In this document: positions 5,415-64,000 of the stretch, in pieces
Position numbering within the stretch: the first letter of the stretch is position 1
Layout: every line of letters starts with the position of its first letter
Assembly: GCA_030430575.1 (NCBI GenBank)
Contig: JAUIKF010000014.1
Location: 62,001 to 126,000 of the forward strand
From: Bacteroidia bacterium
GTDB taxonomy: Bacteria > Bacteroidota > Bacteroidia > J057
Reading direction: 5' to 3'
DNA: 64,000 bases
Notes under the pieces: model-generated
Database searches by the model: none
Seen by the model: the letters and a program-made list of their open reading frames with translations, nothing else
Told to the model about the DNA's origin: nothing
Translations under genes and position numbers: made by a program

Positions 5415-5575
5415 TATACTTTAGACTGGGTGAAATGTCCTGTGAATAAAACCATATAAGACATATAAGAACATTTAAGAAAACCGCTTTTGGACCTTAT
5501 ATGCCCTTAAATGCCTTATATGGTTCAAAAAGCGACCAAAAGTCAAAACGGACTTTCTATCAGGTCTAAAGTATA
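5415..5575. repeat. MITE-like palindromic element, copy 1
   Basis: A 161-bp imperfect palindrome bounded by the terminal inverted repeats TATACTTTAGAC and GTCTAAAGTATA. Inner arms contain AACCATATAAG / CTTATATGGTT and repeated CATTTAAG-like units. A close copy is at 59833-59984 and degenerate copies at 48361 and about 53531. It encodes no protein. It fills most of the 374-bp gap between the MscS gene and the permease gene at 5590; the remaining 5216-5414 shows no gene. Confidence 0.8.
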
Positions 5576-16259: not shown

Positions 16260-16392
16260 CGAATATCGAACAAGGAATTAAGGTTGATGAAGTATTATGC
16301 TCTTTTTTACTTTCTAAATCCTTGTTCATCCCTTCGACACCCTTCTACAAGCTCAGGAGAAGCTCAGGACAGGCAATCATTAATCTGAAATC

Positions 16393-42676: not shown

Positions 42677-42701
42677 GTAGGAGAGGGGGAAGGCGATGAA
42701 T

Positions 42702-43394
42702 TTATTTTTGACTGATAAAACCAGCCTGTTCATTTCGGAAGGATAACAGGTCAAACGGATTACCCTGGTAGTCTTTAAGTCCACAGACCAAATCAGTGAT
42801 GTGTGCGTAGCGCTGCTGGGCGGATATGGCTGCTTGCTTGGGAGCATTCAGGTCGATTTCGGCAGTTTCGACGATTTGAAGAGCTTGTGAAGCATCGTCA
42901 TTTTCTACCCAAAACGGCCCTCCGCCCGTATTGGTTTCTGTCTTGATAATCCCACAGACACGCAGGGGACGATTGAGCGTTTGGTGGACAAAGGTCATGC
43001 GAAGGGCTGGTTCCCAGGAAGGAAAATTAGGCGGAAAACCGATACACAGGTTGGTCTGTAGAAAGCTTAATAGTGTTTTTTCAATCCTCATAAAAGTGTC
43101 TAGCCCTCCCGAATCCAGCGCATGGAGCCAGGCATATATGTTTTGCTGATTATGAAGCAGGATTCCGCCAATCAGTTTTTTCCAATAAATGGTCAAATCC
43201 CGCTTATGATCAGGAAGTACATTGTCCACATTTTTGATAAACACCACATCCGCATCGATCTCATGGAGGTTTTGCAACAGGGCACCATGACCTCCTGGAC
43301 GAAAGACAAGATCGCCGTTTTGATCGCGAAAGGGGCTATTCTCCAAGTCTACTGCCAGCGTATCTGTTTCTGGATGTTGAATAGAAGTGGTCAC
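42702..43394 (-). pseudogene. DUF4301 gene, C-terminal fragment
   Basis: A 230-codon frame that holds the C-terminal half of a DUF4301 protein: TDTLAVDLENSPFRDQNGDLVFRPGGHGALLQNLHEIDADVVFIKNVDNVLPDHK is the hallmark. The GTG at 43394 is not a true start; matching sequence (PTFEQASGYELEV) continues upstream in frame to about 43430, where it overlaps the end of the N-terminal fragment in another frame. Together the two fragments make about 415 residues, whereas the family is usually near 500. So part of the middle is missing and the frame is broken. DUF4301 function is unknown. Confidence 0.7.
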
Positions 43395-43419
43395 TTCAAG
43401 CTCATAGCCCGATGCTTGT

Positions 43420-43932
43420 TCAAATGTCGGAAGGGAATGTTGTAAATGTGTGATTCAACCCTTTTTCTGTGAGTAAATAAGTCAAGATAAGGTCGAACTG
43501 TCGGGATGTAAGCAAAGATTCAATCTGTAAATTGTCCTGGCCCAAAACTCCTTTGAGGGCATCAAAAAAGGCAAATTGGGGTAGGTGTTGAAAGAATTCT
43601 TTGACGGTTTCTGTTAAGTCTTCAGGGTTCGTCATAAATGCATATAGCATGTGAAACATCCTGCTTGCTGCCCCAGAGGCTGGAACAAATTTGCATACCT
43701 TCACCTGCGCAGACCGTTCTTCATATACCTGAATATATGTTTGTCTTTCTTCCAAATCTCCTATTTCCATAACGCCATCGCCTCGGCTTACAGGTCGAAT
43801 GAGTGTGGGAGGAGGAAATCCGTTCTTAAACCGAGCGAGTTGCTCAAGAACTTGGGGGAGTGACCTGCCTGATGTTTGAATGTATTGAAGGTCATCAGGG
43901 CTAAAGACGTTGAGATCTTCCTGATTTTTCAT
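43420..43932 (-). pseudogene. DUF4301 gene, N-terminal fragment
   Basis: A 170-codon frame starting at the ATG at 43932 (MKNQEDL). It carries the N-terminal half of DUF4301: FSPDDLQYIQTSGRSLPQVLEQLARFKNGFPP, KFVPASGAASRMFHMLYAF, VKEFFQHLPQFAFFDALKG and ILTYLLTEKGLNHTF. In intact relatives GLN- continues to an LPKxLLxFHxY..xRTPxEEHL segment and an HFTVSPEH segment; both are absent here. The frame ends in TGA at 43420 right after TTFPSDI. It starts ten bases after galK on the same strand. Confidence 0.7.
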
Positions 43933-43942
43933 ATGTGAATAT

Positions 43943-45091
43943 TTAAAGGAATTTAGCTTGTGCGCCATCCCCTAACGCAACAGCATATGCCTTCAGGTTG
44001 ATGCCCGTTTGCTGAAAATAGGCTGCAGATACCGCAGAAATAAAAGCTTCTTTTTCACTGGATTTAATCAAATTAAGCGTACATCCTCCAAATCCCCCGC
44101 CCATCATTCTTGCGCCTAGCACTTCTTCTTTATTTCGGGTAAAATCCACCAGAAAATCCAGTTCTTGACAACTTACTTCATACAGTTGCGAAAGGCTATC
44201 ATGAGACTGATAGAGCAATCCTCCCAGTTTCTGCATATCTCTCACCTTCATGGCATCACAAGCTTGTAGGACTCGCACATTTTCCTGAACGACATGCAGG
44301 CAGCGCTGATAGATTAAGGCTGGCATTTCATCCTGAAATAGGGTTAACCTGGTGAGGGATACATCTCGCAAATTATGGATCTCAGGAACATGTTTTTTGA
44401 GCAATTCCACCCCCTCCTCGCACTGAGTCCGACGGTCATTATATTCCGTCCCCGCCAGGGAATGCTCCACACAGGTGTCAAGCAAAACGAGTTCATAATC
44501 CCCTAGCTCAAGGGGAAAGTATTCGTATTCCAGGCTCCTACAATCTAGGCGAAAAACATGCCCTTGTTTGCCCATCACACTGGCAAACTGGTCCATGATG
44601 CCACAGGCGACGCCAGCATAATGATGCTCCGCCATTTGCGCGATTTTGGCAAGCTGAGTCTGAGAGAATCTCAGTGAAAACAACTCGTTTAAGCCAGTGG
44701 CCAAGGCACATTCTAGCGCAGCGGAAGAGGATACGCCTGCTCCTAAAGGCACATTGCCATAAAATATCGCCTCAAAAGCACCTAAAGAAGCCCCTGCATT
44801 CTGAAGCTCTGCCACCACGCCTATGATATAGTTTTTCCACCCACCCCCTTCCATCGGATGGAGGCGCTTGAGTGAAAACTCCATTGTCTCCTCCATATCC
44901 ACGGAGTATACCTTACATAGGTCAGTTGCGGAGGTGGAGGCTAAATGAAAAGTGATCTTTTTGTCAATCGCTCCAGGCATGACAAATCCATCATTATAAT
45001 CGGTGTGCTCGCCGATCAGATTTATCCTTCCAGGCGCGCTACTAGAGAGCGTTGGAGGATGATGAAATATGTGAGAAAAATGGTGATTCAT
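43943..45091 (-). CDS. galK: Galactokinase
   Basis: A 382-residue GHMP-family kinase that makes galactose-1-phosphate from galactose and ATP in the Leloir pathway. All key motifs are present: SAPGRINLIGEHTDYNDGFVMP (substrate-binding, about 18-39), VPLGAGVSSSAALE (ATP loop, about 115-130), CGIMDQFASVMG with the catalytic Asp, and GARMMGGGFGGCTL near the end. Length is normal. galT and galM are not seen nearby. The DUF4301 remnant follows directly downstream, in what was probably one operon. Divergent from the hybrid regulator at 45249. Confidence 0.96.
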   Translation of the reverse strand: MNHHFSHIFHHPPTLSSSAPGRINLIGEHTDYNDGFVMPGAIDKKITFHLASTSATDLCKVYSVDMEETMEFSLKRLHPMEGGGWKNYIIGVVAELQNAGASLGAFEAIFYGNVPLGAGVSSSAALECALATGLNELFSLRFSQTQLAKIAQMAEHHYAGVACGIMDQFASVMGKQGHVFRLDCRSLEYEYFPLELGDYELVLLDTCVEHSLAGTEYNDRRTQCEEGVELLKKHVPEIHNLRDVSLTRLTLFQDEMPALIYQRCLHVVQENVRVLQACDAMKVRDMQKLGGLLYQSHDSLSQLYEVSCQELDFLVDFTRNKEEVLGARMMGGGFGGCTLNLIKSSEKEAFISAVSAAYFQQTGINLKAYAVALGDGAQAKFL

Positions 45092-45248
45092 TTAGGGCAT
45101 GAAATTCTAAAACAAGACATCTATTGTCAATTGATTATCTATCTTTTTCCCGTTAAGAACCGCTTGTATTTCCTCAATACTTAGGTTTTGCTAATTTGGC
45201 CCGTGGTTTCCTTTTGTTTCGCCAATTGAAAAGGATGAAAAAGCTACG

Positions 45249-48200
45249 ATGAGGGTTCGATTATTAAGAAATATGAAGCTGGGCCTTAGCCTAATAAGCC
45301 TATGGCATATCTCCTTGATGTGGGCGCAGAACCCGACGGCCTTTCGACATATCAATAAGCAAAATGGGCTTTCCCAAAACTCTGTTTTTGCCATTGCTCA
45401 GGATGGATATGGGTTTATGTGGTTTGGGACAAGAGATGGGTTGAATAAATATGATGGCTATCGAATGATCGTATTCAGGCATCAGGCAGACAATCCACAA
45501 AGCATTATTTCTGATGATATTCGGGCTTTATATTATGATAAAGTAGACAGTGTATTGTGGATTTGTACACCGGAAGGACTGAGTAAATACCTGGCGCAGC
45601 GGGAAGAGTTTGTCAATTACCCCAACCCTGATGGTCCTTTTTTCCCTAAAATGGGCGCCATGCGATGTGTATACAGAGATTCAAAAAATCGCTTATGGGC
45701 AGGTTCTGATTTAACCCGGGTGCTCTTCAAAGATGCCGCCGGTCAAATTTGGCTTGGAACAGATGCTGGATTGGAAAAAATCCAACGAGACGCTACCGGG
45801 AAACTTCGTTTTACCCATTTTCTGCCCGAGATCAAGGTATTCTCATTAAAAGGATCTGGAAAGGGGACTTTATTGGTGGGGAGTTATTCTAATGGCCTTT
45901 TTGAATTAGATAAAGAAGGAAATCTTTTGGGGCACTATACAGAATCGGATGGCCTGCCAGGGCATACGATCTTTGGAATTTTGGAAGATAATAGTGGGAA
46001 GATTTGGTTGAGTACAAATAATGGGTTGGCAAGGTTTGAGCGAACTGGGCGAAGCTTCAGTACTTATAATTATTCGGATGGCTTAAGTAATCTGGAGTTT
46101 AATTTTAATGCTTACGCCAAGACCCGTAAAGGGGAATTCCTGTTTGGTGGGACCAATGGATTTACGCTCTTCGATCCAGAAGAAATTAAAATCAATACGT
46201 TTGTGCCCCCTGTAGTTTTTACTGAGCTAAAATCCTTTAACCAGCCTGTCCAGGTCAATGATAAAAAGGAATTACTAACCAAAGCCATCAACCTAACCCA
46301 AAACCTGACTTTCAGGTATAATCAGGCCAATTTCACCCTTAGTTTTGCAGCCCTTGATTATTTCAACCCCGCCAATAACAGATATGCCTATATCTTGGAG
46401 GGTCTGGACAAAGATTGGAAATATACCCAGGGGAAAACGGAGGTGAGTTATACCATTCAGCGTCCGGGTAAATACACTTTTCGACTAAAAGGAGCCAATA
46501 GTGATGGCATCTGGAATAGTCAAGAGCGACAGCTGCTAATATGTGTTTTGCCGCCTCCGTGGCTGAGCTGGTGGGCCTATATGCTATATGGGCTTTTTGC
46601 TATTTTGGTGTATCTGGGGGTTGTTCGTTTTGTAAAGCTTAGGCATCGCTTCCAACTGGAAAAGGTGGAGAAGGAAAAGCAGAAAGAATTGCATCAATCC
46701 AAGCTTCGCTTTTTTACCAATATTGCGCATGAATTTCGCACACCCCTGACCTTAATTATTGGTCCACTCGAAGAGCTTACCCGAAGGCAAGAAAGTTCAG
46801 GCCGCGTGCAGCGGCAGCTTCTCTCCATCGAGGCCAATGCACATCGCCTACTCAGGCTGGTGAATCAGTTGTTGAACTTTAGGAAACTGGAAGCTGAGCA
46901 TGAGGTTATGCAGGTGGCAGAAGGGAATTTTGTCAAATTTGTGAAGGAGATTTTTCTTTCTTTTCAGGAAAATGCCCGTTTAAGGCAAATTGAGTATACT
47001 TTCTCAACAGTGGCAAATGAGATGAATCTGTGGTATGATCGGGATAAAATGGAGAAGGTTTGCTTCAATTTGTTGTCCAACGCATTTAAATTCACGCCGG
47101 ATTGTGGGAAAGTTGCTGTATCAATCACTCAGGAAGAAGGAGCCATTTGCCTGGAAGTAAACGATAATGGTAAAGGCATCTCTTCACTGATGCAAGAACA
47201 AATATTCAAACGATTCTTTGAGCAGGAAACTCCCTTTGAGCACAACTTTAAAAATTCTGGAATTGGTCTGGCAGTTTCTCGTCAATTAGTGGAAATGCAT
47301 CATGGAAGTATCCATGTACAAAGCGAAGAAGGCAAAGGTGCTTGTTTTCAAGTGCGAATCCCTAAGGGCAAAAATCATTTTAAAAAGAATGAAATCATCC
47401 TGGGCTTCAAGGATAGCGAAGATATTTCAAATTATACAGCCCATGCCCCAACTGAAATCACTCCTCAGACTCCTCCCATTCAGCCGCTTGAAGATGTAGC
47501 TAATACTTCCAGAGAGGATCAAAAACGTCTTTTAATTGTGGAGGATAATCAGGAAGTACAAAATTATATCAAACAGATTTTTGCCAGTGAATATCAACTT
47601 ATTTCAGCTTCTAATGGGGAAGAAGGCTTTAAAAAAGCCAAAGAAAGCAGTCCGGATTTGATTTTGAGCGATGTCATGATGCCCAGAATGGATGGCATCA
47701 GTTTTTGTAGCAAAATCAAAACAAGTGTGGAGACCAGCCATATTCCTGTTATTTTGTTGACAGCGCGGACGGCTTTTATCTATAAGCTGGAGGGGTTGGA
47801 AACAGGTGCTGATGATTATATCACGAAACCCTTCAGCCCAGAAGAGCTCAAACTTCGCGTGCGAAATATCCTTCAGGCCCGTACACGCATGCGTGAGAAA
47901 TTTACCAAGACCTTGAAGCTTGAACCCAAAGAAGTGACGCCCACTTCCGTAGACGAAATATTCCTGGAGAAAGCCATTCAATTGATAGAAAACAATATGG
48001 ATAATGTGGACTTCTCTGTAGAAGATTTTGCCTATGAAATGGCTGTTAGTCGGGCATTGTTGTTTACCAAAATAAAATCTGTCACCGACCTTACCCCTAA
48101 CAACTTCATCAAAACCCTGCGGATGAAGCGTGCTGCCCAATTATTGAAACATCAAAAATTGGGCGTAGCTGAAGTTGCCTATCAGGTAGGCTTCAGGGAT

Positions 48201-48269
48201 AGTCGCTATTTCAGCAAGACTTTCCGCAAGCAGTTTGGGAAGACGCCTACGGAATACATGGCAGAATAG
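45249..48269 (+). CDS. Hybrid two-component system regulator (HTCS), shortened sensor
   Basis: A 1006-residue inner-membrane sensor and DNA-binding protein in one chain. Order: signal/anchor (MKLGLSLISLWHISLMWA, the inner ATG at 45279 may be the real start), beta-propeller blades from about 35 to 320 (WFGTRDGLNKYDGY, WLGTDAGL, WLSTNNGLARFE), Y_Y_Y domain (about 361-425), one transmembrane helix (about 440-462), HisKA with FFTNIAHEFRTPL (His about 494), HATPase (NLLSNAFKFTP, NDNGKGI, SGIGLAVS), receiver (VEDN, phospho-Asp in LSDVMMPRMDG) and a C-terminal AraC-type helix-turn-helix (VAEVAYQVGFRDSRYFSKTFRKQFGKTPTEY). HTCS proteins bind a glycan fragment in the periplasm and switch on utilisation genes. 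Full-length ones have about 14 blades and 1300-1400 residues; here about six. It probably controls the genes that follow. Confidence 0.93.
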   Translation: MRVRLLRNMKLGLSLISLWHISLMWAQNPTAFRHINKQNGLSQNSVFAIAQDGYGFMWFGTRDGLNKYDGYRMIVFRHQADNPQSIISDDIRALYYDKVDSVLWICTPEGLSKYLAQREEFVNYPNPDGPFFPKMGAMRCVYRDSKNRLWAGSDLTRVLFKDAAGQIWLGTDAGLEKIQRDATGKLRFTHFLPEIKVFSLKGSGKGTLLVGSYSNGLFELDKEGNLLGHYTESDGLPGHTIFGILEDNSGKIWLSTNNGLARFERTGRSFSTYNYSDGLSNLEFNFNAYAKTRKGEFLFGGTNGFTLFDPEEIKINTFVPPVVFTELKSFNQPVQVNDKKELLTKAINLTQNLTFRYNQANFTLSFAALDYFNPANNRYAYILEGLDKDWKYTQGKTEVSYTIQRPGKYTFRLKGANSDGIWNSQERQLLICVLPPPWLSWWAYMLYGLFAILVYLGVVRFVKLRHRFQLEKVEKEKQKELHQSKLRFFTNIAHEFRTPLTLIIGPLEELTRRQESSGRVQRQLLSIEANAHRLLRLVNQLLNFRKLEAEHEVMQVAEGNFVKFVKEIFLSFQENARLRQIEYTFSTVANEMNLWYDRDKMEKVCFNLLSNAFKFTPDCGKVAVSITQEEGAICLEVNDNGKGISSLMQEQIFKRFFEQETPFEHNFKNSGIGLAVSRQLVEMHHGSIHVQSEEGKGACFQVRIPKGKNHFKKNEIILGFKDSEDISNYTAHAPTEITPQTPPIQPLEDVANTSREDQKRLLIVEDNQEVQNYIKQIFASEYQLISASNGEEGFKKAKESSPDLILSDVMMPRMDGISFCSKIKTSVETSHIPVILLTARTAFIYKLEGLETGADDYITKPFSPEELKLRVRNILQARTRMREKFTKTLKLEPKEVTPTSVDEIFLEKAIQLIENNMDNVDFSVEDFAYEMAVSRALLFTKIKSVTDLTPNNFIKTLRMKRAAQLLKHQKLGVAEVAYQVGFRDSRYFSKTFRKQFGKTPTEYMAE

Positions 48270-48307
48270 ATATATCCTTCTGAAATCATTCGATTTAGAC
48301 TTTTGGT

Positions 48308-48356
48308 CCCCTAGAATTAGATTTTTGAGGAGACGTTTCCTGCTACCTTTACCCCA
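48308..48356 (+). promoter_or_regulatory. 49-bp motif shared with the GH88 upstream region
   Basis: CCCCTAGAATTAGATTTTTG is identical at 48308-48327 and 63019-63038; the next 29 bases match at 21 positions with no gap and end in TACCTTTACCCCA here. The TAnnTTTA inside looks like a -7 promoter box (consensus TAnnTTTG). Likely a regulator binding site plus promoter. It is 400 bases before the ATG at 48761, with a MITE-like element in between. Confidence 0.6.
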
Positions 48357-48360
48357 AAGC

Positions 48361-48575
48361 TATACTATAGTCTGTGAAAAAAGCCGTTTGGATTAAACCA
48401 TATAAGACATTTAAGGGCATTTAAGTATGAATTAGGAAATAAGAAAATAGTAATACTCTTTCACTCTTATTCCTTCATAATTTCTTGCTTCTATGGTCTT
48501 ATATATCTTTTTTGGTTCAAAATATGGCCCTAAATGTAACCAGGTAATCTATCAGGATTAAGGTCTAATTTTTAC
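48361..48575. repeat. MITE-like palindromic element, degenerate copy 3
   Basis: Begins TATACTATAGTCTGTG and ends ATCAGGATTAAGGTCTAA, with inner AAACCATATAAGACATTTAAG and its partner CTTATATATCTTTTTTGGTT. Ends and inner arms are related to the copies at 5415 and 59833. Its insertion would explain the long leader before the gene at 48761. The 491-bp gap 48270-48760 holds this, the shared motif and one palindrome, but no gene. Confidence 0.6.
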
Positions 48576-48678
48576 AAATGAAACCTTTTTTCACCATATC
48601 CAAAGGGGTTTATTTAGTGCGTGTGAAACAGGGCCCAAAGCAGGTTACGCGTAGGGTTTTAGTAGAATGACTTAAACG

Positions 48679-48707
48679 GTTGTTCCGACTTTCAAAGTCG
48701 GAACAAC
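48679..48707. repeat. GTTGTTCCGACTTT palindrome
   Basis: Perfect 14-bp arms GTTGTTCCGACTTT and AAAGTCGGAACAAC around a single C. It lies 54 bases before the ATG at 48761. It looks like a dispersed repeat; an operator role is possible. Confidence 0.6.
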
Positions 48708-48760
48708 GATCCAATTGGCAAGCATTTTTACCTAATATTGACAGAAGACTTTAGCTACAG

Positions 48761-49585
48761 ATGAACAATTGGACTACAATTCGGATTTCAGCATTTACCC
48801 TGATATTGTTATTATGCTTTACGGGTTGTAGTGACGCTAACAAAAAACAAACGGAACCCCCAAAACCCTACATCATCTTAAAGCTGGATGACCTGAAGTT
48901 TGAAGATGGCCTGGTTCACCCTGGATGGGATCAGGTAGTATCCTATCTGAATGAAAAAGCAGTAATAGGGACTATCGGTCTTATAGGGGAATCTTTGGAA
49001 GAAGGTGATTCCACCTATTTCGATTGGATCAAAGCGCGTGACCAAGAGGGGTATGAGATCTGGCATCATGGATATTGCCACTGTAAACGTATGCGCGATG
49101 AAAAAGAAGTCAGAGAATATAAGGGAGAGCCTTTTGGTGCCCAGCAAACAAGTCTTTTGAGGACGCATCATTTGGCCAAAGAAAAGTTAGGCATTACCCT
49201 TCGCTCTTTTGGGGCACCCTACAATTCAACAGACGAGTGTACGCCTCCAGCATTAGAAAAAATATCCGACATCAAGGTCTGGATGTACAAAGAGACAACT
49301 GCCCCAACGGATAAGTTTGAGCTTAATAGGATCAAAGCGGTAAATATTGAGTACCCTGTTCATGTGCCGGATTTCGAACAATTTAAAGCTGGGTATGATG
49401 CCTTTCGGACTGAACCAGTCCTAGTCATTCAAGGGCATCCCAGGAGCTGGGTGGAAGATTTAAACCGGTGGGAGGAGTTCAAAAAAATCATAGATTTTTT
49501 ACTACAAAAGCAAGTCACGTTTATCACTCCTTATGAGTATTATTTGATGGAAATGGGAAAGACTTCCATTAAAAACGTCCCTTAA
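48761..49585 (+). CDS. Polysaccharide deacetylase-like lipoprotein
   Basis: A 274-residue lipoprotein (signal MNNWTTIRISAFTLILLLCFTGC, lipobox FTGC, Cys 23). The rest resembles NodB-homology/DUF2334 proteins: IILKLDDLKF in place of the TFDD metal motif, YEIWHHGYCHCKR with an HxxxH-type metal pair, FGAPYNSTDE and VLVIQGHPRSW. This suggests a metal-dependent deacetylase or esterase acting on a sugar chain outside the cytosol. First gene after the HTCS regulator and before the rhamnose genes, so it may deacetylate oligosaccharide imported or trimmed by the same system; context inference. Confidence 0.8.
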   Translation: MNNWTTIRISAFTLILLLCFTGCSDANKKQTEPPKPYIILKLDDLKFEDGLVHPGWDQVVSYLNEKAVIGTIGLIGESLEEGDSTYFDWIKARDQEGYEIWHHGYCHCKRMRDEKEVREYKGEPFGAQQTSLLRTHHLAKEKLGITLRSFGAPYNSTDECTPPALEKISDIKVWMYKETTAPTDKFELNRIKAVNIEYPVHVPDFEQFKAGYDAFRTEPVLVIQGHPRSWVEDLNRWEEFKKIIDFLLQKQVTFITPYEYYLMEMGKTSIKNVP

Positions 49586-49902
49586 TTTCTTCGCAATTCT
49601 AGGTCATGTTGAAAATGACCAATCTCTTTTCTTAATTCAGAAGGATTTAATCCTGTTTTCTTTTTTTGAGGAACCAGGGCCTTCCTGCTTAACCAAGTCA
49701 ATAATTTTGTAATAGATAGATTTTCGTTTGGGCCTGTAATAATGTCTATCCCTAGGCCATAGAATCATCAAAGTTCTAGGTTTGATCTGGTATTTACTTG
49801 TATCAGTTTCAAAAGCGCAAACGAATGCTCAAATTATGCATTGATCTACCTCTGTTTAAAGGCTACATTTGTTAAAATTCGCCTAATAATAACACAAAAA
49901 AC
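49586..49902. other. 317-bp leader region before the rhamnose genes
   Basis: No accepted gene. On the minus strand two frames stay open for about 60 codons (for example the one ending NPSELRKEIGHFQHDLELRRN at 49585) but neither has a proper start or a recognisable product; they may be remnants. The right end holds the promoter at 49840-49871. Confidence 0.5.
49840..49871 (+). promoter_or_regulatory. Promoter of the rhamnose operon
   Basis: The -7 box TACATTTG (49864-49871) matches TAnnTTTG fully. ATTG (49840-49843) lies 20 bases upstream and fits the -33 TTTG box with one mismatch. The ATG of the aldolase/dehydrogenase gene is at 49903. Spacing is as known for the Bacteroidota primary sigma factor. 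Confidence 0.6.
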
Positions 49903-52002
49903 ATGCAGTCTAACTCATTCGATCATGTCAATTACCTCTGGGATGAATCCGAGGCCTCAGAATTAGCCGGAGACGAGGTAGCCTTATTCTTATATCGCTC
50001 TAACCAATTAGGGGCAGACCTCCGGATCACGAATTATGGAGGGGGAAATACCTCTTGTAAGACCATTGAGAAGGATCCGCTGACAGGAGAAGAAGTAGAA
50101 GTCATGTGGGTGAAAGGTTCAGGAGGAGATATCGGTACCTTGACCAGACAAGGCATTGCAGGTTTGTATGTAGACAAGCTTAGAGCTTTGAAAAACGTGT
50201 ACCGTGGGCTTGAATTCGAGGATGAAATCGTTCCCCTGTACTATCATTGTTTGTATGATTTGGATAGCCGTACCCCTTCCATAGATACAGCTCTGCACGG
50301 CCTTTTACCTTTTAAACATATAGACCATTTGCATCCTGATGCGTTGATCTCCATCGCTGCAGCCAAAGACAGCCAGCGGATCACCCAGGAGATTTGGGGA
50401 GATACGATGGGATGGATTCCGTGGCAACGTCCTGGTTTTGATTTGGGATTACAGTTAGAAAAGTGTCTAAATGAAAATCCAGGCATTCGCGGGATTGTGC
50501 TGGGCGGGCATGGCCTGTTTACCTGGGGAGACACTTCCTATGCGTGCTATATCAATAGCCTGGAAGTCATTGAAACAGCCTCTGCTTATATAGCAGAAAG
50601 AGAAGGGAAAGAACGCCCCGTTTTTGGTGGGCAAAAAGTAGAAAGTTTACCCGCAAACGATCGCAAGCAGCAAGCCGCCCAAATAGCGCCTTTATTAAGA
50701 GGCCTTTGCTCCAGCCACAAAAGAATGATCGGGCATTTTACAGATGATGAAAGGGTGCTTCAATTCATCAACAGCCATGATCTGGCCAAATTAGCCCCTT
50801 TAGGAACTTCCTGCCCAGACCACTTTCTCAGAACCAAAATTCAGCCTTTGGTCCTAAATCTTCCCGCTAGTGCAGATCTCAGCGATCCCCCAAAAATCAA
50901 AGCGCAAATTGAGCCTGATTTTGATGGGTATAGGCAAGAATATGAGGCCTATTATGACACATGCAAGCACGACAATAGTCCGGCTATGCGTGATCCCAAC
51001 CCCGTAGTCATTTTGTATCCGGGCGTAGGGATGTTCACCTTTGCCAAGAATAAACAGACTGCCCGAGTAGCCGCAGAGTTTTACCTCAATGCGATCAATG
51101 TCATGAGAGGGGCAGAAGCCATCTCCGAATATACCGCACTTCCCCGCCAGGAAGCATTTGACATTGAGTACTGGCTCCTGGAAGAAGCTAAATTGCAGCG
51201 TCAACCTGCCGAGAAACCGCTTTCTCGTAAAGTTGCCCTCATCACAGGTGCTGGAGGAGGAATCGGTAAAGCAATCGCCACCAAATTGGTCGCTGAGGGC
51301 GCCAATGTGGTATTGACGGACATATCAGAGGATTCTTTGATTGAGGTAAATAATACCTTTAAACGAGATACGTCGACCTATGTGGTTTGTAATGTAAACA
51401 GTACAGAGGATATTGCTGAAGCATTTGCTGCAGCCTGCCTGGAATTTGGAGGGGTAGACATCATAGTGCATGCAGCAGGGCTGGCTATTTCCAAGCCGTT
51501 GGCTGAGCATAGCATTCAGGATTGGGATATCTTACAAAACGTCTTGGTCAAAGGGCAGTTTTTAATGGCGCAGGAAGGCGTATCTATTTTGCGCAAACAG
51601 GCCTTGGGAGGTGACATTATTCACATTGCTTCGAAAAATGGCCTAGTAGCAGGGCCTAATAATGTGGGCTATGGCACTGCCAAAGCCGCCCAACAACACA
51701 TGACACGCTTACTGGCTGCTGAGTTGGGAGGCGAAAAGATTCGGGTAAATACGGTAAACCCTGATGGGGTGATCGTGGGCAGTAAAATATGGGAAGGAGA
51801 ATGGGCAGAAGGAAGGGCTAAAGCGCACGGAATATCTGTTGAAGAGCTGCCTGCTCATTATGCTAAGCGGAACCTGATGAATGAGATTATCCTTCCCGAT
51901 GATATAGCCGATGCGGTATTTGCATTGGTAGGGATTTTAGGAAAAAGCACTGGAAATACCCTGAATGTGGATGGTGGAATGGCTTCCGCTTTTGTTAGAT
52001 AG
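49903..52002 (+). CDS. rhaD: Bifunctional rhamnulose-1-phosphate aldolase / short-chain dehydrogenase
   Basis: A 699-residue two-domain cytosolic enzyme. Residues 1-430 form a class II aldolase domain (LRITNYGGGNTSCK, VKGSGGDIGTLTRQGIAGLYVDKL, HLHPDALISIAAAKD, GIVLGGHGLFTWGD), which splits rhamnulose-1-phosphate into DHAP and L-lactaldehyde. Residues 440-699 are a short-chain dehydrogenase (VALITGAGGGIGKAIA, GxxxGxG cofactor loop; catalytic YGTAKAA; substrate VNTVNPDGVI), which should oxidise or reduce lactaldehyde. This fusion is typical of rhamnose pathways in Bacteroidota and Bacillus (TIGR02632 type). First gene of the rhamnose block, with a promoter directly upstream. Confidence 0.94.
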   Translation: MQSNSFDHVNYLWDESEASELAGDEVALFLYRSNQLGADLRITNYGGGNTSCKTIEKDPLTGEEVEVMWVKGSGGDIGTLTRQGIAGLYVDKLRALKNVYRGLEFEDEIVPLYYHCLYDLDSRTPSIDTALHGLLPFKHIDHLHPDALISIAAAKDSQRITQEIWGDTMGWIPWQRPGFDLGLQLEKCLNENPGIRGIVLGGHGLFTWGDTSYACYINSLEVIETASAYIAEREGKERPVFGGQKVESLPANDRKQQAAQIAPLLRGLCSSHKRMIGHFTDDERVLQFINSHDLAKLAPLGTSCPDHFLRTKIQPLVLNLPASADLSDPPKIKAQIEPDFDGYRQEYEAYYDTCKHDNSPAMRDPNPVVILYPGVGMFTFAKNKQTARVAAEFYLNAINVMRGAEAISEYTALPRQEAFDIEYWLLEEAKLQRQPAEKPLSRKVALITGAGGGIGKAIATKLVAEGANVVLTDISEDSLIEVNNTFKRDTSTYVVCNVNSTEDIAEAFAAACLEFGGVDIIVHAAGLAISKPLAEHSIQDWDILQNVLVKGQFLMAQEGVSILRKQALGGDIIHIASKNGLVAGPNNVGYGTAKAAQQHMTRLLAAELGGEKIRVNTVNPDGVIVGSKIWEGEWAEGRAKAHGISVEELPAHYAKRNLMNEIILPDDIADAVFALVGILGKSTGNTLNVDGGMASAFVR

Positions 52003-52076
52003 TTCATGTTTTCCTAATAGAATTTTTTGGTTAATTGAGACATTTAGTGGAATGATCACTTTACCCCTAACATTCA

Positions 52077-52141
52077 CCACGGATTACACAGATTTACACG
52101 GATTAAAGAAAGAAATCTGTGGGAATCTGGGTAATCTGTGG
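52077..52141. repeat. CCACGGATTACACAGATTT palindromic repeat
   Basis: Starts CCACGGATTACACAGATTT, then AAAGAAAGAAATCTGTG and ends GGGTAATCTGTGG, so the outer arms pair. Degenerate copy at 26489. It sits in the 201-bp gap between the aldolase and isomerase genes of one operon. Confidence 0.7.
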
Positions 52142-52203
52142 TTTTTTCTTTATTCCTCCACCCAAACCTGCACCCTAAATTTTCTCCCTTCAATTCCTTG
52201 ATT

Positions 52204-53487
52204 ATGCAAATTTCAACAGATCAAATCAGGCTATTTAATACCTATCATGAAGCGCATCACAAACGTCAGTTTGAATATTTAGCCAGTGAACTCGCTGAAA
52301 ATGGACTGGATGTAGAATCCCTGCTGGAAAAAATCAGCCATTTTCAAGTGGCTATTCCCAGTTGGGCCCTTGGAACGGGAGGCACACGTTTTGGTCGCTT
52401 TTCGATGAGTGGAGAGCCTGGCAATCTCACAGAAAAAATCAAGGATATTGGGATTCTCCACCAATTAACGCGATCTGCAGGAGCGGTATCCCTCCATATT
52501 CCCTGGGATATTCCGGAGTACCCGGAAGAGATTAAAGAACTTGCAGATGCTTATGGAATTGTGTTCGACGCGGTCAATTCTAATACCTTTCAGGATCAGC
52601 CTGGACAAGCTTCGAGTTATAAATATGGATCCCTATGCGCAACTGAGCCTACGGTTCGCTCTCAGGCAATTGAGCATAACAAATCAGTCATTGATCATGG
52701 CATTGCGTTAGGCTCAAAAAGCCTGACCGTATGGCTCTCTGATGGTTCTAATTTTCCGGGTCAGCTAAACTTCAGAAAGGCGCTCCAGCGTACACAGCAG
52801 AGCTTACAGGAAATATATGCCTATATGCCTTCCGATTGGAAAATGTATATAGAGTACAAACCCTATGAGCCCAATTTTTACAGCACCGTAATTCAGGATT
52901 GGGGAACCTCTCATTTACTAGCTCAGGCCTGTGGAGATAGAGCGTACTGCCTGGTGGACCTGGGGCACCATCTCCCCAATACTAATATTGAGCAAATCGT
53001 GGCAACGCTACTGTGGAAAGGAAAGCTTGGCGGTTTTCATTTTAACGACAGTAAATATGGAGACGATGACCTTACGGTTGGCTCTATTAAGCCTTACCAG
53101 CTCTTTTTGATTTTCAATGAATTGGTATTTGGAATGGAAAATAATGAGGGGCATAATCCCCCGCTGGCCTGGATGATTGATGCCAGTCATAATATCAAAG
53201 ATCCATTGGAAGACTTGATGCAAAGTTTAGAAGCCATAAGGCTTGCATATGCACAGGCGCTGATCGTGAATCATGAACGGTTGGAGCATGCGCGTGATAT
53301 CAATGATGTGACCTTATGTCAGGAGATCATGCAAGCTGCTTACCGGACTGATTTACGGCCCTTATTGCAAGAGGCGAGGCTAAGAACTGGAGGAGCAATT
53401 GAGCCAATATCTTTTTATCGTGAGGCAAATATTCGCGAACAATTGACCGCTAAAAGAGGCATAACATCTGTAGCAACGGGCCTTTAA
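52204..53487 (+). CDS. rhaI: L-rhamnose isomerase (TIM-barrel, RhaI type)
   Basis: A 427-residue xylose-isomerase-like TIM-barrel enzyme that turns L-rhamnose into L-rhamnulose. ATG 52204 (MQISTDQI) was chosen; the upstream extension would code for repeat-derived sequence. Features: SWALGTGGTRFGRF near the N-terminus as in the Pseudomonas stutzeri type (TIGR02629), SLHIPWDIP, VWLSDGSNFPGQ, MYIEYKPYEPNFYSTVIQDWG with metal-binding Glu, VDLGHHLPNTNIE with metal-binding Asp/His, FHFNDSKYGDDDL and WMIDASHN. Distinct from the RhaA family of E. coli. Cytosolic; middle gene of the rhamnose block. Confidence 0.93.
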   Translation: MQISTDQIRLFNTYHEAHHKRQFEYLASELAENGLDVESLLEKISHFQVAIPSWALGTGGTRFGRFSMSGEPGNLTEKIKDIGILHQLTRSAGAVSLHIPWDIPEYPEEIKELADAYGIVFDAVNSNTFQDQPGQASSYKYGSLCATEPTVRSQAIEHNKSVIDHGIALGSKSLTVWLSDGSNFPGQLNFRKALQRTQQSLQEIYAYMPSDWKMYIEYKPYEPNFYSTVIQDWGTSHLLAQACGDRAYCLVDLGHHLPNTNIEQIVATLLWKGKLGGFHFNDSKYGDDDLTVGSIKPYQLFLIFNELVFGMENNEGHNPPLAWMIDASHNIKDPLEDLMQSLEAIRLAYAQALIVNHERLEHARDINDVTLCQEIMQAAYRTDLRPLLQEARLRTGGAIEPISFYREANIREQLTAKRGITSVATGL

Positions 53488-53630
53488 TGGATAAAGAAAA
53501 AATTAATATAATCAGCCATTCCCCATTTAAACCAAATAAGACATAGAAGTGCATATAAGTAGCCAGTTATTTCCTTCTTCTATGTTCTTATTTTGATTTT
53601 AACTTTCATTTTTATTTTTATTCATCGCTA

Positions 53631-54998
53631 ATGAAAGTGAATGCCATATTCGATATTGGAAAAACAAACAAAAAGTTTTTCCTTTTTGATTCCTCCTACC
53701 AGGAAGTATTCAAATCATACACCTCTTTTGAGGAGGTCAGAGATGAAGATGGCTTTCCCTGCGATGACCTTCAGGCGATAGAATCTTGGGCCATAGATAG
53801 CCTGAATCGTATATCTCAAGAAGGTAAATTTGAGGTAAGGACCCTTAATTTTTCTACTTATGGAGCGAGCTGGGTCCATATTGATAAAAATGGTCAGCCG
53901 CTCACCCCTTTATACAATTATCTTAAGCCTATCCCAGAGGAAATCTTAGCGTCTTTTTATGCTAAATATGGGGATGAATTAACCATTGCAAAAGAGACTT
54001 CCTCTGCTCCTTTAGGCATGCTCAATTCTGGATTGCAGCTGTATTGGCTTAAATATGCACGTCCAGAGATATTTGCTCAGATTCGCTGGTCGCTGCATTT
54101 TCCTCAATATTTGAGTTACCTATTTACTTCCATTCCGCTCAGTGAATTTACAAGTATAGGGTGCCATACATTTTTGTGGGATTATGCTAAAAATGATTAC
54201 CATTCCTGGGTGTATGCCGAAGAGCTGGACCGAATCCTCCCGCCAGTTGTCAATACACAAACCAGTATTAATGTAACAGATGGAGGGAAAAAATATAAGA
54301 TAGGCGTTGGAATTCACGATAGCTCAGCAGCCTTATTGCCCTATCTTCAAGCGCAGCGTAAACCTTTTTTACTGGTTTCTACAGGAACCTGGAGTATTTC
54401 CATTAACCCTTTTAACCAAGAGCCCTTATCTGATGAGGATTTGAGGCAGGATTGTTTAAGCTTTCTGAGTATGGAGGGGAAAGGCATTAAAGTCTCCCGG
54501 TTGTTTTTGGGCTATGAGTATAGCTTACAAGTCAAAAAGCTTTGCGAATATTTTGCGAAGGAATCAGGATATCATAAGTATGTGAAATTTACGCCTGATA
54601 TATATGCAAAATTAAATCAGGCCTACGCCCATCACTTTCACTTTGAATCCATAAAAATAAATAGGGAACAGCCTTCAGCAACCTCCTTAGCACCCTTCCA
54701 AACCTTTGAAGAAGCCTATCATCAACTGATGATGGAATTGGTCGAATTGCAAATTCAATCATGCGAAAGGGCTATTGGAAATACCCATATATCCAAGCTA
54801 TTTATTGATGGAGGATTTGCCGACAATGAGATATATGTCCGATTATTAACCAATCATTTTCAAGACCTTAAAATCAGGACAACCAAGTCCCCGCTAGGCT
54901 CTGCTTTAGGCGCAGCCATGGCTATTTCAATCAAGGAGCCTGATAAGCATTTTTTGCGACAGAATTATCAGCTCAAAAAACATAAATATCGTGTGTAA
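53631..54998 (+). CDS. rhaB: FGGY-family sugar kinase, probable rhamnulokinase
   Basis: A 455-residue FGGY carbohydrate kinase. N-terminal phosphate loop FDIGKTNKKFFLFD, STYGASWVHID, the substrate region LGMLNSGLQLYWLKYARPE, and FPQYLSYLFTS. The C-terminal half has GVGIHDSSAALLPYL, LLVSTGTWSISINPF (ATP-binding), FIDGGFADNEIYVRLLTN and SPLGSALGAAM. Between the isomerase and lactate-type dehydrogenase genes, it should phosphorylate L-rhamnulose at O1. Similar to fuculokinases; the call as rhamnulokinase rests on context. A 143-bp gap before it holds a degenerate AACCAAATAAGACAT palindrome of the MITE-like family. Confidence 0.85.
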   Translation: MKVNAIFDIGKTNKKFFLFDSSYQEVFKSYTSFEEVRDEDGFPCDDLQAIESWAIDSLNRISQEGKFEVRTLNFSTYGASWVHIDKNGQPLTPLYNYLKPIPEEILASFYAKYGDELTIAKETSSAPLGMLNSGLQLYWLKYARPEIFAQIRWSLHFPQYLSYLFTSIPLSEFTSIGCHTFLWDYAKNDYHSWVYAEELDRILPPVVNTQTSINVTDGGKKYKIGVGIHDSSAALLPYLQAQRKPFLLVSTGTWSISINPFNQEPLSDEDLRQDCLSFLSMEGKGIKVSRLFLGYEYSLQVKKLCEYFAKESGYHKYVKFTPDIYAKLNQAYAHHFHFESIKINREQPSATSLAPFQTFEEAYHQLMMELVELQIQSCERAIGNTHISKLFIDGGFADNEIYVRLLTNHFQDLKIRTTKSPLGSALGAAMAISIKEPDKHFLRQNYQLKKHKYRV

Positions 54999-55021
54999 AA
55001 AGCTTATATCTATTCCTCAAC

Positions 55022-55159
55022 AACAAGGTTGTCATTTCGACCAACGGGAGAAATCTAACACGCCCTTTCGAGTGGTTATTTCTAGGCTTCTGGGCCACAT
55101 TGCTAGATTTCTCCTCCCTTCACAAAGCCTCAGATCGTCGAAATGACAACAGAGTTGTT
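55022..55159. repeat. TTGTCATTTCGAC-type palindromic repeat
   Basis: The ends AACAAGGTTGTCATTTCGA and the complement TCGAAATGACAACAGAGTTGTT form terminal inverted repeats; GAGAAATCTA and TAGATTTCTC pair inside. Known type of dispersed element in Bacteroidota genomes. It splits the rhamnose block between the kinase and the FMN enzyme. Confidence 0.7.
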
Positions 55160-55213
55160 ATGTAATAAAACTTTTTTCACCTAATAATAAATCGTCCACT
55201 ATTCTAATTTAAT

Positions 55214-56365
55214 ATGCAGCGCGGATTCAACCCAAATTATCCATCCATCATGGATCTCAGGAAAAAAGCAAAGAAGAAAATCCCTCGATTTGCATTTGAA
55301 TACCTGGATGGGGGCTGCAACTCTGAAGTTAATCTGAGGCGAAATACAGAGGAAATTAGGGAGGTTCAACTGAAGCCTTATTACCTGAGGGATCACAAAA
55401 CGCCCTCATTAAAGACTGAGCTGTTTGGGCAAGCATATGATGCTCCTTTTGGCATATCTCCTATTGGCCTACAAGGCTTGATGTGGCCCCGAGCCTCTGA
55501 AATATTGGCGAAAGCGGCCTTTGACCATAATATCCCTTTTATCTTAAGCACAGTAGCAACAGCTAGCCTGGAAAGCATTGCAGAAATCACAGAAGGCAAG
55601 GCATGGTTTCAATTGTATCACCCCAAAGAGGAAGAATTGACAGATGACCTCTTGAAACGGGCGGAAGCGGCCGGCTATAAAGTGCTTGTGATCCTGTCGG
55701 ATGTGCCTAGTTTTGGGTATCGCTCAAAAGAGATTAAGAATGGCTTAGCCATTCCGCCCAGGATGACGGTAAGCAATATATTGCAGATCATGAGCAGACC
55801 CAACTGGGCGCTTCAGACCCTTATCGCTGGTCAACCTACCTTTAAAAGCCTTACGCCCTATATCCCCGAAGGGATGAATTTGAGACACCTGGGATTGTTT
55901 ATGAACAACACTTTTACTGGAAAGCTCAATGAGGAAAAGGTTAAAGCATTGCGGGAAAAATGGAAAGGGAAATTGGTCATTAAAGGGATTGCCAGTGAAG
56001 AAGACACCGAAAAGGCCATCAAGTGGGGCCTCGATGGGATCATCGTTTCTAACCATGGCGGAAGGCAATTAGATGGGGGACAATCCACTATCAAAGCCCT
56101 TGTACCCATCGTGGAGAAATTCCAAAACCAGATAAAAATCTTAATCGATAGCGGCATTAGAACAGGGCCAGATATTGCGAGTGTATTGGCCAGCGGAGCA
56201 GAATTCGCCTTCCTGGGAAGGTCTTGCATGTATGGGGTAGCCGCCTTAGGTAAACATGGAGGGAATCATACCCTCTCCATGCTGAAAACGCAGTTAACAC
56301 AAGTCATGGATCAGCTTTGCTGTGAAAAAGTCACCGACCTCCCAAATCATTTGATACGATCATAA
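55214..56365 (+). CDS. lldD: FMN-dependent alpha-hydroxy acid dehydrogenase, probable L-lactate dehydrogenase
   Basis: A 383-residue FMN enzyme of the LldD/glycolate oxidase family. Motifs: PRFAFEYLDGGCNSEVNLRRN, PFGISPIGLQGLMWPRASEILAKAA, STVATASLESIAE, WFQLYHPKEEELTDDLLKRAEAAGYKVLVILSDVP, KGKLVIKGIASEEDTEKA, and the active-site SNHGGRQLDGG with catalytic His, then IDSGIRTGPDIASVLASGAEFAFLGRSCMYG. It oxidises L-lactate to pyruvate. Placed after the rhamnose enzymes it would finish the conversion of the C3 fragment (lactaldehyde to lactate to pyruvate). Substrate choice among 2-hydroxy acids is inferred. Confidence 0.9.
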   Translation: MQRGFNPNYPSIMDLRKKAKKKIPRFAFEYLDGGCNSEVNLRRNTEEIREVQLKPYYLRDHKTPSLKTELFGQAYDAPFGISPIGLQGLMWPRASEILAKAAFDHNIPFILSTVATASLESIAEITEGKAWFQLYHPKEEELTDDLLKRAEAAGYKVLVILSDVPSFGYRSKEIKNGLAIPPRMTVSNILQIMSRPNWALQTLIAGQPTFKSLTPYIPEGMNLRHLGLFMNNTFTGKLNEEKVKALREKWKGKLVIKGIASEEDTEKAIKWGLDGIIVSNHGGRQLDGGQSTIKALVPIVEKFQNQIKILIDSGIRTGPDIASVLASGAEFAFLGRSCMYGVAALGKHGGNHTLSMLKTQLTQVMDQLCCEKVTDLPNHLIRS

Positions 56366-61454: not shown

Positions 61455-62948
61455 TTATTGATGGCCTGATCCTAAAAAATCTAGGTCCTTTCTCCAACGC
61501 TCGTAAGCGTGGCTATAGACGTCATTCATTTTTTCTGGCTCTATTGTTTTGATCATGTGATTGTTCTGCACCGCCTCTCGCACGGAGGCATATATGCCAT
61601 TGGCAACGCCTGCGGCTTTGGCTGCACCTATGGCGCCCGTGGTCTCGATGAGTTCAATCCTGCTGCCCATCAGGTTGGAAATGGTACTGGAAAAGATAGA
61701 AGATTGAAAAAGATTATCATTGCCCACACGAATTACCTGCACATCGAGGCCCATTTCTTTGAGGATATTCATCCCATAGACAAAAGAAAAAGCAATGCCT
61801 TCGAGCGCCGCTCTGAAGAAGTGCGCTTTATGGTGACGGTTGAATTGCAAATTGTTGATCTGGGCGCCTGGGGCCTGGTTGCCAAGCATACGTTCAGCTC
61901 CATTGCCGAAAGGCAAGATCCGCAGGCCATCCGCGCCCACAGGCACCGATGCGGCAAGCAGTTCCATGTCGTGATAGGACATATTGGCTTCTGCCATTTG
62001 CTGCTTGATCCAACTGTACTGGATGCCCGCACCATTGATACAGAGCAGGATACCGATGCGGTTTTGTGCAGGGGTGTGATTCACGTGAGCAAAGCCATTG
62101 ACCCGTGATTGAGAATCGTAGATGGGTTGATCTACGACCCCATAGACAACGCCGGAAGTCCCTCCTGTTGCTGAGATTTCTCCTGGTTCCAGCACATTGA
62201 GCGAGAGGGCATTATTGGGCTGATCACCTGCGCGGTAATTAATGGGGATACCCGCGACCAGGCCTGTAGCACGAGCCGCTGAAGGACTTACTTTCCCCTG
62301 CAATGAAAAAGTGGACAAGATTTCTGGTAAAAGGCCAGCATCAAATCCAAAATGATCCATCAGGAGCTCAGATGGCCTTTCCTCCAAAAAATCCCAAAGA
62401 ATGCCTTCTGATAAACCGCTGATCGTGGTCACGATGTCACCACTCAACCGCATGGCAAGGTAATCTCCAGGCAGCATGATTTTATCAATCCGTTCAAATA
62501 CTTCAGGCTCATGCTCCTTTACCCATTTGAGTTTGGATGCGGTGAAGTTGCCAGGTGAATTGAGTAGATGAGAATAACATTTTTCCTTCCCTATACTGGC
62601 AAGGGCCTGTTCTCCGATCTCAACTGCGCGGCTATCACACCAGATGATTGCTGGACGCAGTACTTGTTGATTGTTATCCACCAGCACCAAGCCATGCATC
62701 TGGTAAGCAATGCCAATCCCTTTGATGGAGGATGGATCAACTGAGGTTTGCAGCAAAAGATTTTTTGTTGCCAGGCACAGGTGATTCCACCAGGTTTCGG
62801 GGTGTTGTTCTGCCCAACCTTCCTGCGCAGCGAGCATCTCCATCTCCGTTTCCGGAGATTGGACTACTGCAAGGGGTTTGCCACTTGCAGCATCTACTAG
62901 TGCAGCTTTGATGGAAGAAGAGCCTATATCGTAGCCAAGTAAATACAT
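61455..62948 (-). CDS. xylB: Xylulokinase
   Basis: A 497-residue FGGY kinase. The ATG at 62948 (MYLLGYDIGSSSIK) was preferred over a TTG five codons upstream. Motifs: GYDIGSSSIKAALVD, WAEQHPETWW, IGIAYQMHGLVLVD with the conserved MH pair, IIWCDSRA, KLKWVKEHEPEVF, PGDYLAMRLSG, AGDQPNNALSLNVLEPGEISATGGTSGVVY (ATP loop, the catalytic Asp in GDQ). It forms xylulose-5-phosphate, feeding the pentose phosphate pathway. First gene of the xylB-xylA-symporter unit. Confidence 0.95.
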   Translation of the reverse strand: MYLLGYDIGSSSIKAALVDAASGKPLAVVQSPETEMEMLAAQEGWAEQHPETWWNHLCLATKNLLLQTSVDPSSIKGIGIAYQMHGLVLVDNNQQVLRPAIIWCDSRAVEIGEQALASIGKEKCYSHLLNSPGNFTASKLKWVKEHEPEVFERIDKIMLPGDYLAMRLSGDIVTTISGLSEGILWDFLEERPSELLMDHFGFDAGLLPEILSTFSLQGKVSPSAARATGLVAGIPINYRAGDQPNNALSLNVLEPGEISATGGTSGVVYGVVDQPIYDSQSRVNGFAHVNHTPAQNRIGILLCINGAGIQYSWIKQQMAEANMSYHDMELLAASVPVGADGLRILPFGNGAERMLGNQAPGAQINNLQFNRHHKAHFFRAALEGIAFSFVYGMNILKEMGLDVQVIRVGNDNLFQSSIFSSTISNLMGSRIELIETTGAIGAAKAAGVANGIYASVREAVQNNHMIKTIEPEKMNDVYSHAYERWRKDLDFLGSGHQ

Positions 62949-63018
62949 GATTTTGATGCTCAATTTACGACTAAATAATCCCCATTCCCACCAAAAATGG
63001 CCATTCTGGACAATTGCC

Positions 63019-63067
63019 CCCCTAGAATTAGATTTTTGGAGAGGCCTTTTCAGCTACATTTACCTCA
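63019..63067 (+). promoter_or_regulatory. 49-bp motif shared with the region before the rhamnose block
   Basis: Second copy of the motif at 48308. The first 20 bases (CCCCTAGAATTAGATTTTTG) are identical. The TACATTTA at 63054-63061 would serve as -7 box and lies 60 bases before the ATG of the GH88 gene. It also lies between the divergent xylB and GH88 genes. Confidence 0.6.
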
Positions 63068-63121: not shown

Positions 63122-64000
63122 ATGAAAATAAGTACGCTGGGCTTTGCCTGTATATTCAGCCTGTGCCTCTTGTCATGCACGCAGGAAAAACCGTCTGATG
63201 CCCTGGAAGACCCTTTTTATGACCAGCAATTGCAATCCATGGTGGATAAAGCAGTGGGTTATTTGGGCAAAATAGCTATTGACTCTACTGCTATTCCGCG
63301 CTCCTTACAAAAGGACGGTAGCCTTTATGGAACTGGATCCAGAGACTGGACCAGTGGTTTCTATCCCGGACAGCTATGGCAATTGTATGAATACAGCCAG
63401 AAGGAAGAACTGATGCAAGCAGTCGCTCAATGGACCGCTTTTATTGAAAAAGAAAAATATGATACCCATACCCATGATTTGGGTTTCAAAGTGTTTTGCA
63501 GCTTTGGACAAGGCTATAGATTGACCCAGAATGAAGCCTATAAAGAGGTGATCTTGCAGACTGCTGCCACCTTGATCAAACGCTATCATGAGAAAGTCGG
63601 CTGTATCCGTTCTTGGGACTTCAATCGTGAGGTTTGGCAATTCCCTGTCATCATAGACAATATGATGAACCTCGAAATGCTCTTTGCCGCGACACGTATG
63701 TCTGGTGATTCTACCTATTACAATATTGCCTATCAACATGCGCTTACAACGCTCAAAAATCATATCCGTGAAGATCACAGTTCCTATCACGTGATCGACT
63801 ATGATACCCTGAGTGGGGAAATCAGACTTCGTCAGACCCATCAGGGATTCTCTGATGCCTCAAGTTGGGCCAGAGGCCAGGCCTGGAACCTCTATGGGTT
63901 TAGTATGGCATATCGCGAGACAGGCGACGAACGCTTTTTGGAACATGCCAAAGGCCTTGCCCAATTCTTTTACACACACCCTCGATTGCCTGAAGACCTG
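63122..64000 (+). CDS. Unsaturated glucuronyl hydrolase (GH88), lipoprotein, 3' end cut off
   Basis: The ATG at 63122 opens a frame that runs past the window end (293 codons seen, about 100 missing). Lipoprotein signal MKISTLGFACIFSLCLLSC with Cys 19. GH88 motifs are in place: DWTSGFYPGQLWQLYEY, THDLGF with Asp 119, REVWQFPVIIDNMMNLEMLF with Asp 179, HQGFSDASSWARGQAWNLYGF. In the GH88 family the two Asp residues start hydration of the unsaturated uronic acid left by polysaccharide lyases, which releases it from an oligosaccharide. The lipid anchor points to the periplasm or surface. Divergent from xylB; shares an upstream motif with the rhamnose block. Confidence 0.93.
   Translation, partial: MKISTLGFACIFSLCLLSCTQEKPSDALEDPFYDQQLQSMVDKAVGYLGKIAIDSTAIPRSLQKDGSLYGTGSRDWTSGFYPGQLWQLYEYSQKEELMQAVAQWTAFIEKEKYDTHTHDLGFKVFCSFGQGYRLTQNEAYKEVILQTAATLIKRYHEKVGCIRSWDFNREVWQFPVIIDNMMNLEMLFAATRMSGDSTYYNIAYQHALTTLKNHIREDHSSYHVIDYDTLSGEIRLRQTHQGFSDASSWARGQAWNLYGFSMAYRETGDERFLEHAKGLAQFFYTHPRLPEDL

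Follow-up and report, generated by a model that had tools for sequence, protein, structure and literature searches.

A predicted HTCS operator-promoter occurs in two copies upstream of rhamnose and GH88 gene blocks in a Bacteroidia genome

HTCSs are a major class of regulators for glycan use in Bacteroidetes. The window analyzed here, a 64,000-nucleotide stretch of one contig of a Bacteroidia bacterium, encodes one such regulator together with two copies of a short motif (Table 1). Copy 1 follows the HTCS gene immediately on its 3' side; the gene ends at 48269, and the left half-site begins 24 bp past the stop codon. Measured from the ends of a 49-bp match between the copies, copy 1 is 404 bp ahead of the DUF2334 gene (start 48761) and copy 2 is 54 bp ahead of the GH88 gene (start 63122). 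A first-pass annotation had placed both copies on the plus strand upstream of the deacetylase/rhamnose and GH88 genes, and these distances bear it out.

Table 1. Features of the two motif copies and their surroundings, in window coordinates.
Feature	Position	Strand	Remarks
HTCS regulator, predicted binder	45249..48269	+	Pfam: propeller, Y_Y_Y, HisKA, HATPase, receiver, AraC
Copy 1 left half-site TTTAGACTTTTG	48294..48305	+	direct repeat 22 bp from right half; same in L005
Copy 1 right half-site ATTAGATTTTTG	48316..48327	+	at -33 position
Copy 1 -7 box TACCTTTA	48344..48351	+	16 bp past right half-site
MITE-like dispersed repeat separating copy 1 from its gene	about 48358-48568	+	
DUF2334 (polysaccharide-deacetylase-like) gene, first gene past copy 1	48761..49585	+	Pfam
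RhaD-dehydrogenase, rhamnose isomerase, rhamnulokinase-like kinase, FMN-dependent dehydrogenase	49903..56365	+	
Copy 2 left half-site TCTGGACAATTG, degenerate	63005..63016	+	
Copy 2 right half-site ATTAGATTTTTG	63027..63038	+	
Copy 2 -7 box TACATTTA	63055..63062	+	
GH88-family gene, extends beyond window end	63122..64000	+	

Past the FMN-dependent dehydrogenase gene come a 463-aa gene and then, on the other strand, genes for a sodium symporter, XylA and XylB. The XylB start (ATG by eye at 62948; 62946-63005) is close to copy 2 and divergent from it, and the XylB promoter may also be sensitive to bound HTCS. Beyond the window, GH88 is followed by GH2 with DUF4861, TRAP genes on the other strand, KduD- and KduI-like genes, UxuA, UxaC and an integrase. 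In this genome dctP, dctQ and dctM are separate frames; on contig C209 of genome G060 (reversed 15447-16286) the TRAP genes are down to a DctP-DctM remnant. Taken with GH88, the rhamnose, xylose and uronate genes suggest what we assume to be a rhamnose- and uronate-bearing glycan, for example ulvan or rhamnogalacturonan. On the other side of the HTCS gene, a DUF4301 gene (42702-43968) is read in two frames, 42702-43394 and 43420-43968, and is probably either broken or affected by a sequencing frameshift.

The segments 48308-48356 and 63019-63067 are identical at 41 of 49 positions, ungapped and on the same strand, and they begin with an identical 20-mer, CCCCTAGAATTAGATTTTTG (48308-48327 and 63019-63038). 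A recount gave exactly the figures first reported, and the TAnnTTTA box noted at that stage is present in both copies. The 49-bp match stood as described, but it missed the left half-site, and the true unit is longer. The full unit is 58 bp and starts 14 bp to the left of the match (at 48294 and 63005); it consists of two direct-repeat half-sites 22 bp apart, then exactly 16 bp, then TAnnTTTA. The half-sites are separated by 10 bp containing CCCC in copy 1 and CCCCCC in copy 2. Copy 1 and the closest relative have the same left half-site, TTTAGACTTTTG, from which that of copy 2 differs at 4 of 12 bases. Both copies carry TTTTG 16 bp upstream of the box, and the exact string TTTG-N16-20-TAnnTTTG is absent at both.

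Within the window, the 18-base core of the shared 20-mer has 2 matches at up to 3 mismatches (0.09 expected), and TTTTG-N16-TAnnTTTR occurs only at copies 1 and 2 (0.27 expected; two or more in 3 of 100 shuffles). However, the plus strand of the window has 114 different recurring 20-mers, of which 113 belong to other repeats; a shared 20-mer is therefore not rare at this scale, and the case for rarity rests on the genome search. As a separate observation, window positions 5415 and 59833 have long identical stretches in common, one among several other window repeats. Across the genome (8.16 Mb, 127 contigs) CCCCTAGAATTAGATTTTTG has 2 sites at up to 3 mismatches and its reversed-pattern control has none. 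Both sites lie at glycan-use genes, those of the DUF2334/rhamnose and GH88 blocks. The many copies at unrelated genes that would mark a mere repeat did not appear in this search. Further copies had also been expected at SusCD genes; the own genome has none at the mismatch limits used. Among 60 genomes, the own one included, that one alone matched the 20-mer at up to 2 mismatches. A search for the pattern of both half-sites, allowing up to 3 mismatches, likewise finds only copies 1 and 2 in the own genome (reversed control 0), and 0 to 3 matches in each of five other genomes, with 2 in the reversed control for G007. A looser pattern of half-site and -7 box, at up to 1 mismatch, gives 3 matches in the own genome against 2 in reversed controls; two are exact and are the copies themselves, and the third (C35:486) has 1 mismatch. 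More diverged sites may exist elsewhere in the genome. The viral contigs searched yielded neither an HTCS relative nor an exact match, and in a tblastn search of plasmids with the HTCS all of the best 5000 records listed were below 60% identity.

The HTCS had been named as the candidate binder, and the layout was sought 3' of related HTCS genes with a matrix trained on copies 1 and 2 and the site of the closest relative, L005. In 400 bp 3' of held-out HTCS genes, scored against 300 dinucleotide shuffles, three relatives reached 21.4 (G007), 16.0 (G010) and 26.9 bits (G218) with 0 of 300 shuffles as high in each case. A fourth, G003, reached 9.7 bits (1 of 300 shuffles), with a poor left half and a higher score, 16.8, on the opposite strand. 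All four thus stood at or below 1/300. In contrast, the layout was found 3' of none of nine paralogous HTCSs (23 to 296 of 300 shuffles as high), the nine being those with a located DNA-binding domain that reaches the protein's end; L009, L011-L015 and L024 were left unscored.

A second test drew on relatives from the family of G218 and covered 510 bp 3' of each gene (277 bp for L099) with 200 shuffles. Thirty-nine places gave 29 new loci (L086-L114), with 8 of the 39 unscored and G218 and the C312 HTCS scored separately; removal of L114, which has no DNA-binding domain, and of L086, a training locus with the same DNA as L005, left 27 held-out loci. Seventeen of these were at or below 1/200 shuffles and 22 at or below 5/200, where L110-L113, from one genus, share one identical site and are equal to one event. 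The five relatives without a site are L089, L098, L099, L105 and L107: L099 ends near a contig edge, the next 80-aa open frame at L089 is 1067 bp off, and L105 has no site although it is upstream of a receptor-like gene. Pooled over both sets, which differ in threshold, region length and number of shuffles, the same layout lies 3' of 26 of 31 held-out HTCS relatives. In the second set, with L086 counted in, 28 loci were scored for both strands, and at 26 of them the HTCS strand had the higher score. There is also a preference for the spacing itself: the 22/16 combination reached at least 15 bits at 13 of 27 loci and the 98 other spacing pairs did so at 0 to 6 loci. The 22-bp repeat distance is common to the own copies and the relatives, with the left half weak in copy 2, and 22 sites (own copies and L086 included) give the consensus.tTagAC.tTT. 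/ t.CCcC.... / t.TAGAtTTTT. / 16 bp / TA..TTT.

In contrast with the own genome, the gene following the site in relatives is often receptor-like. Judged by eye from first residues, it is TonB-receptor-like at 18 of 28 loci and GH88-like at 2 (L086 and L096); the two next genes tested by Pfam, in G218 and G060 (L085), are both TonB receptors, and in G218 two Alginate_lyase-family genes follow. The receptor that accompanies the HTCS in G218 is absent from the own genome at E<=1e-100. Additionally, a second HTCS of G060 (contig C312) is separated from a TonB receptor gene by the same layout, at 28.6 bits with the next best in that locus at -7.5, in a scan with a seven-site matrix that had the first site of G060 among its training sites.

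The DNA-binding domain of the HTCS, HTH_18/HTH_AraC by Pfam, varies together with the site. Seven carriers of the layout are 46-88% identical over this domain, and all seven have a first helix of the form A(V/I)SR(A/P)L(L/I)FTK(I/L)K. Eight paralogues are 37-48% identical to the own domain, FTK occurs in none of them, and the paralogue helix nearest to that of the carriers is AVSRPILFKKIK (G003c). Together with the layout found 3' of relatives and not of paralogues, this helix supports the proposed binder. The sensor side has changed: compared with the 1340-aa HTCS of L005, some 360 aa of propeller sequence are missing from the own protein, in frame with a junction near 45712, and its Reg_prop score is 68 bits compared with 161. 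Because so much of the sensor is lost, its signalling state is unsure.

Copy 1 is followed at once by a MITE-like repeat that pushes it some 400 bases from its gene, as first described. Counting itself, the segment 48357-48760 has at least 75 matches in the own genome, with 40 out of 134 candidates scored. Among 19 loci aligned to the repeat, where a single place is sometimes counted twice, 14 have alignments that begin at 48356-48361, and the two ends of the repeat (48358-48425 and 48488-48568) are found paired elsewhere in the genome. The leader past copy 1 folds better than shuffled sequence (z -4.2, 0 of 100). It contains a perfect 14-bp hairpin with a 1-nt loop at 48679-48707; no T run follows, and the core is unique in the window at up to 3 mismatches. 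A terminator scan of 48200-50000 found no intrinsic terminator ahead of the DUF2334 gene; the two plus-strand candidates, compared with a shuffle mean of 1.6, are both past the gene's start.

The locus is rearranged in comparison with L005, the closest relative found, from a Bacteroidia MAG (G060 and G457 are the same DNA). In L005 the HTCS gene is followed by one operator, starting 25 bp past the stop, and then by GH88 and GH2; the rhamnose genes lie 13 bp past uxaC on the same strand, and RhaD is 92% identical. In L005 a single motif has the left-hand flanking sequence of copy 1 before it and the right-hand flanking sequence of copy 2 after it. The window has the rhamnose block in between the HTCS and GH88 genes, with one copy to each block. 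About 130 bp past its FMN-dehydrogenase gene, L005 has the 3' remnant of another HTCS gene, most similar to the HTCS studied here: identity is 82% to the intact HTCS of L005, 80% to that of the window and 74% to the other HTCS of G060, on C312. One frame of 1343 aa on the same contig as L005 (reversed 41905-45936) was considered as a second HTCS and is not an HTCS. The fragment and the split layout suit a past tandem duplication with reciprocal losses, for which they are only suggestive.

The own genome belongs to a different family and order from G060. In a tree of 36 rows its HTCS is nevertheless placed with the one from G060 (100/100) and alongside G523 and G694 (98/97), while the other three from its own family form a clade (100/100). 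A tree of 11 rows retains the pair with G060 (97/96), but a topology uniting the four own-family HTCSs is not rejected there (p-AU 0.17). A phage-type integrase lies directly past uxaC at the edge of the locus (own contig C17, L004:14227-15453; window-equivalent 77226-78452). Horizontal acquisition of the HTCS locus is plausible because of this grouping and the integrase, and a binning error may also be behind the grouping.

The kind of site proposed is already known, namely the HTCS direct-repeat operator. For Bacteroides, Ravcheev et al. 2013 (PMC3878776) predicted 16 motifs of HTCSs. Every one is a direct repeat, the distance averages 21 bp, and the authors interpret the pair of sites as bound by two monomers on the same side of the helix. 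Like the B. thetaiotaomicron operators there (HTCS_Rgu-1, HTCS_Rgu-2, HTCS_Hep and others), the present site is a direct repeat about two helical turns apart, lies upstream of glycan-use operons with several operons per regulon, and is predicted by the same footprinting logic. In contrast, the distance here is 22 bp rather than a mean of 21, the genera are others, and a fixed 16-bp gap to the -7 box was tested for the present site. As regards the promoter, the Bacteroides -7/-33 consensus is TAnnTTTG/TTTG (PMC7366714). Both copies resemble this sigma-ABfr promoter in the TAnnTTT core and in a TTTG at a fitting distance, but the last -7 base is A rather than G in both and, unlike in the published promoter, the -33 TTTG falls within a regulator half-site. 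The present operator was not found in the literature searched, published logos and supplements aside, and we do not claim a first description.

Based on these results, we propose, with a probability of roughly 0.86, that each copy is a predicted operator-promoter of the HTCS encoded just ahead of copy 1, and that one sensor probably switches on two neighbouring sugar-breakdown gene sets. On meeting its saccharide, the sensor would have its receiver domain phosphorylated, and two AraC-type domains would then bind the half-sites, 22 bp or two helical turns apart, on the same DNA face. The right half-site, which ends in TTTTG, would occupy the place of the -33 element 16 bp upstream of the TAnnTTTA box, where the bound HTCS could contact RNA polymerase and substitute for or boost -33 recognition. 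We infer in this way an activator that replaces -33 recognition, with phosphorylation-dependent binding, starts of transcription downstream of the boxes and co-regulation of the two blocks. Copy 1 would drive the DUF2334/rhamnose genes, whose control by the HTCS is predicted, through a leader of about 400 nt that carries the dispersed repeat; copy 2 would drive GH88-GH2 and perhaps the uronate genes beyond. The distance of copy 1 from its gene and the foldable leader between them count against this proposal, as do the weak left half of copy 2, the higher opposite-strand score and poor left half in G003, the five relatives lacking a site, the control matches to the half-site/-7 pattern and the loss of part of the sensor.

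Under another reading, which we consider unlikely, the rearrangement that brought the rhamnose/xylose block in between the HTCS and GH88 genes left the two copies behind as scars. The operator would have been duplicated, only the GH88 copy would be functional, and copy 1 would be a relic capped by the repeat. The serial arrangement of flanks and motif in L005, the position of its rhamnose genes past uxaC and the start of the repeat right past copy 1 all agree with such a history. However, copy 1 retains the left half-site found in L005, the exact 22/16 spacing and the TAnnTTTA box, and a duplicated operator is compatible with a functional one.

It is improbable that the motif has nothing to do with the HTCS and is a plain core promoter for the housekeeping sigma factor or serves some other regulator. 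The TAnnTTTA box and a TTTTG at -33 are general Bacteroidetes promoter elements (PMC7366714), but the two spaced half-sites and a C-rich linker are conserved with the HTCS group and absent 3' of nine paralogues, and an identical stretch of 20 bases is longer than a core promoter requires. It is highly improbable that the motif belongs to a dispersed mobile repeat such as the MITE-like element, with its many matches, that abuts copy 1. The other copies of that element align from 48356 or later, past the -7 box (19 loci), and the dispersed repeat was rejected as the identity of the motif on its two genome copies at up to 3 mismatches.

Returning to the operator-promoter proposal, the observation made in the window extends to an operator 3' of most held-out relatives, with a rigid -7 distance that predicts contact at -33. 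The recognition helix goes along with the operator, which makes the two a testable regulator-operator pair, and the locus is a candidate case of an operon split through operator duplication. We tentatively entertain, as a rather doubtful further step, that an HTCS locus, possibly acquired horizontally, was rewired by tandem duplication of the series from HTCS, operator and GH88 through to the rhamnose genes. Reciprocal loss would then have divided this one long operator-driven series into two operons, each with an operator, with a sensor short of about one propeller and a cognate outer-membrane receptor either lost or never gained. If true, a glycan sensor would have been left running only oligosaccharide and monosaccharide catabolism.
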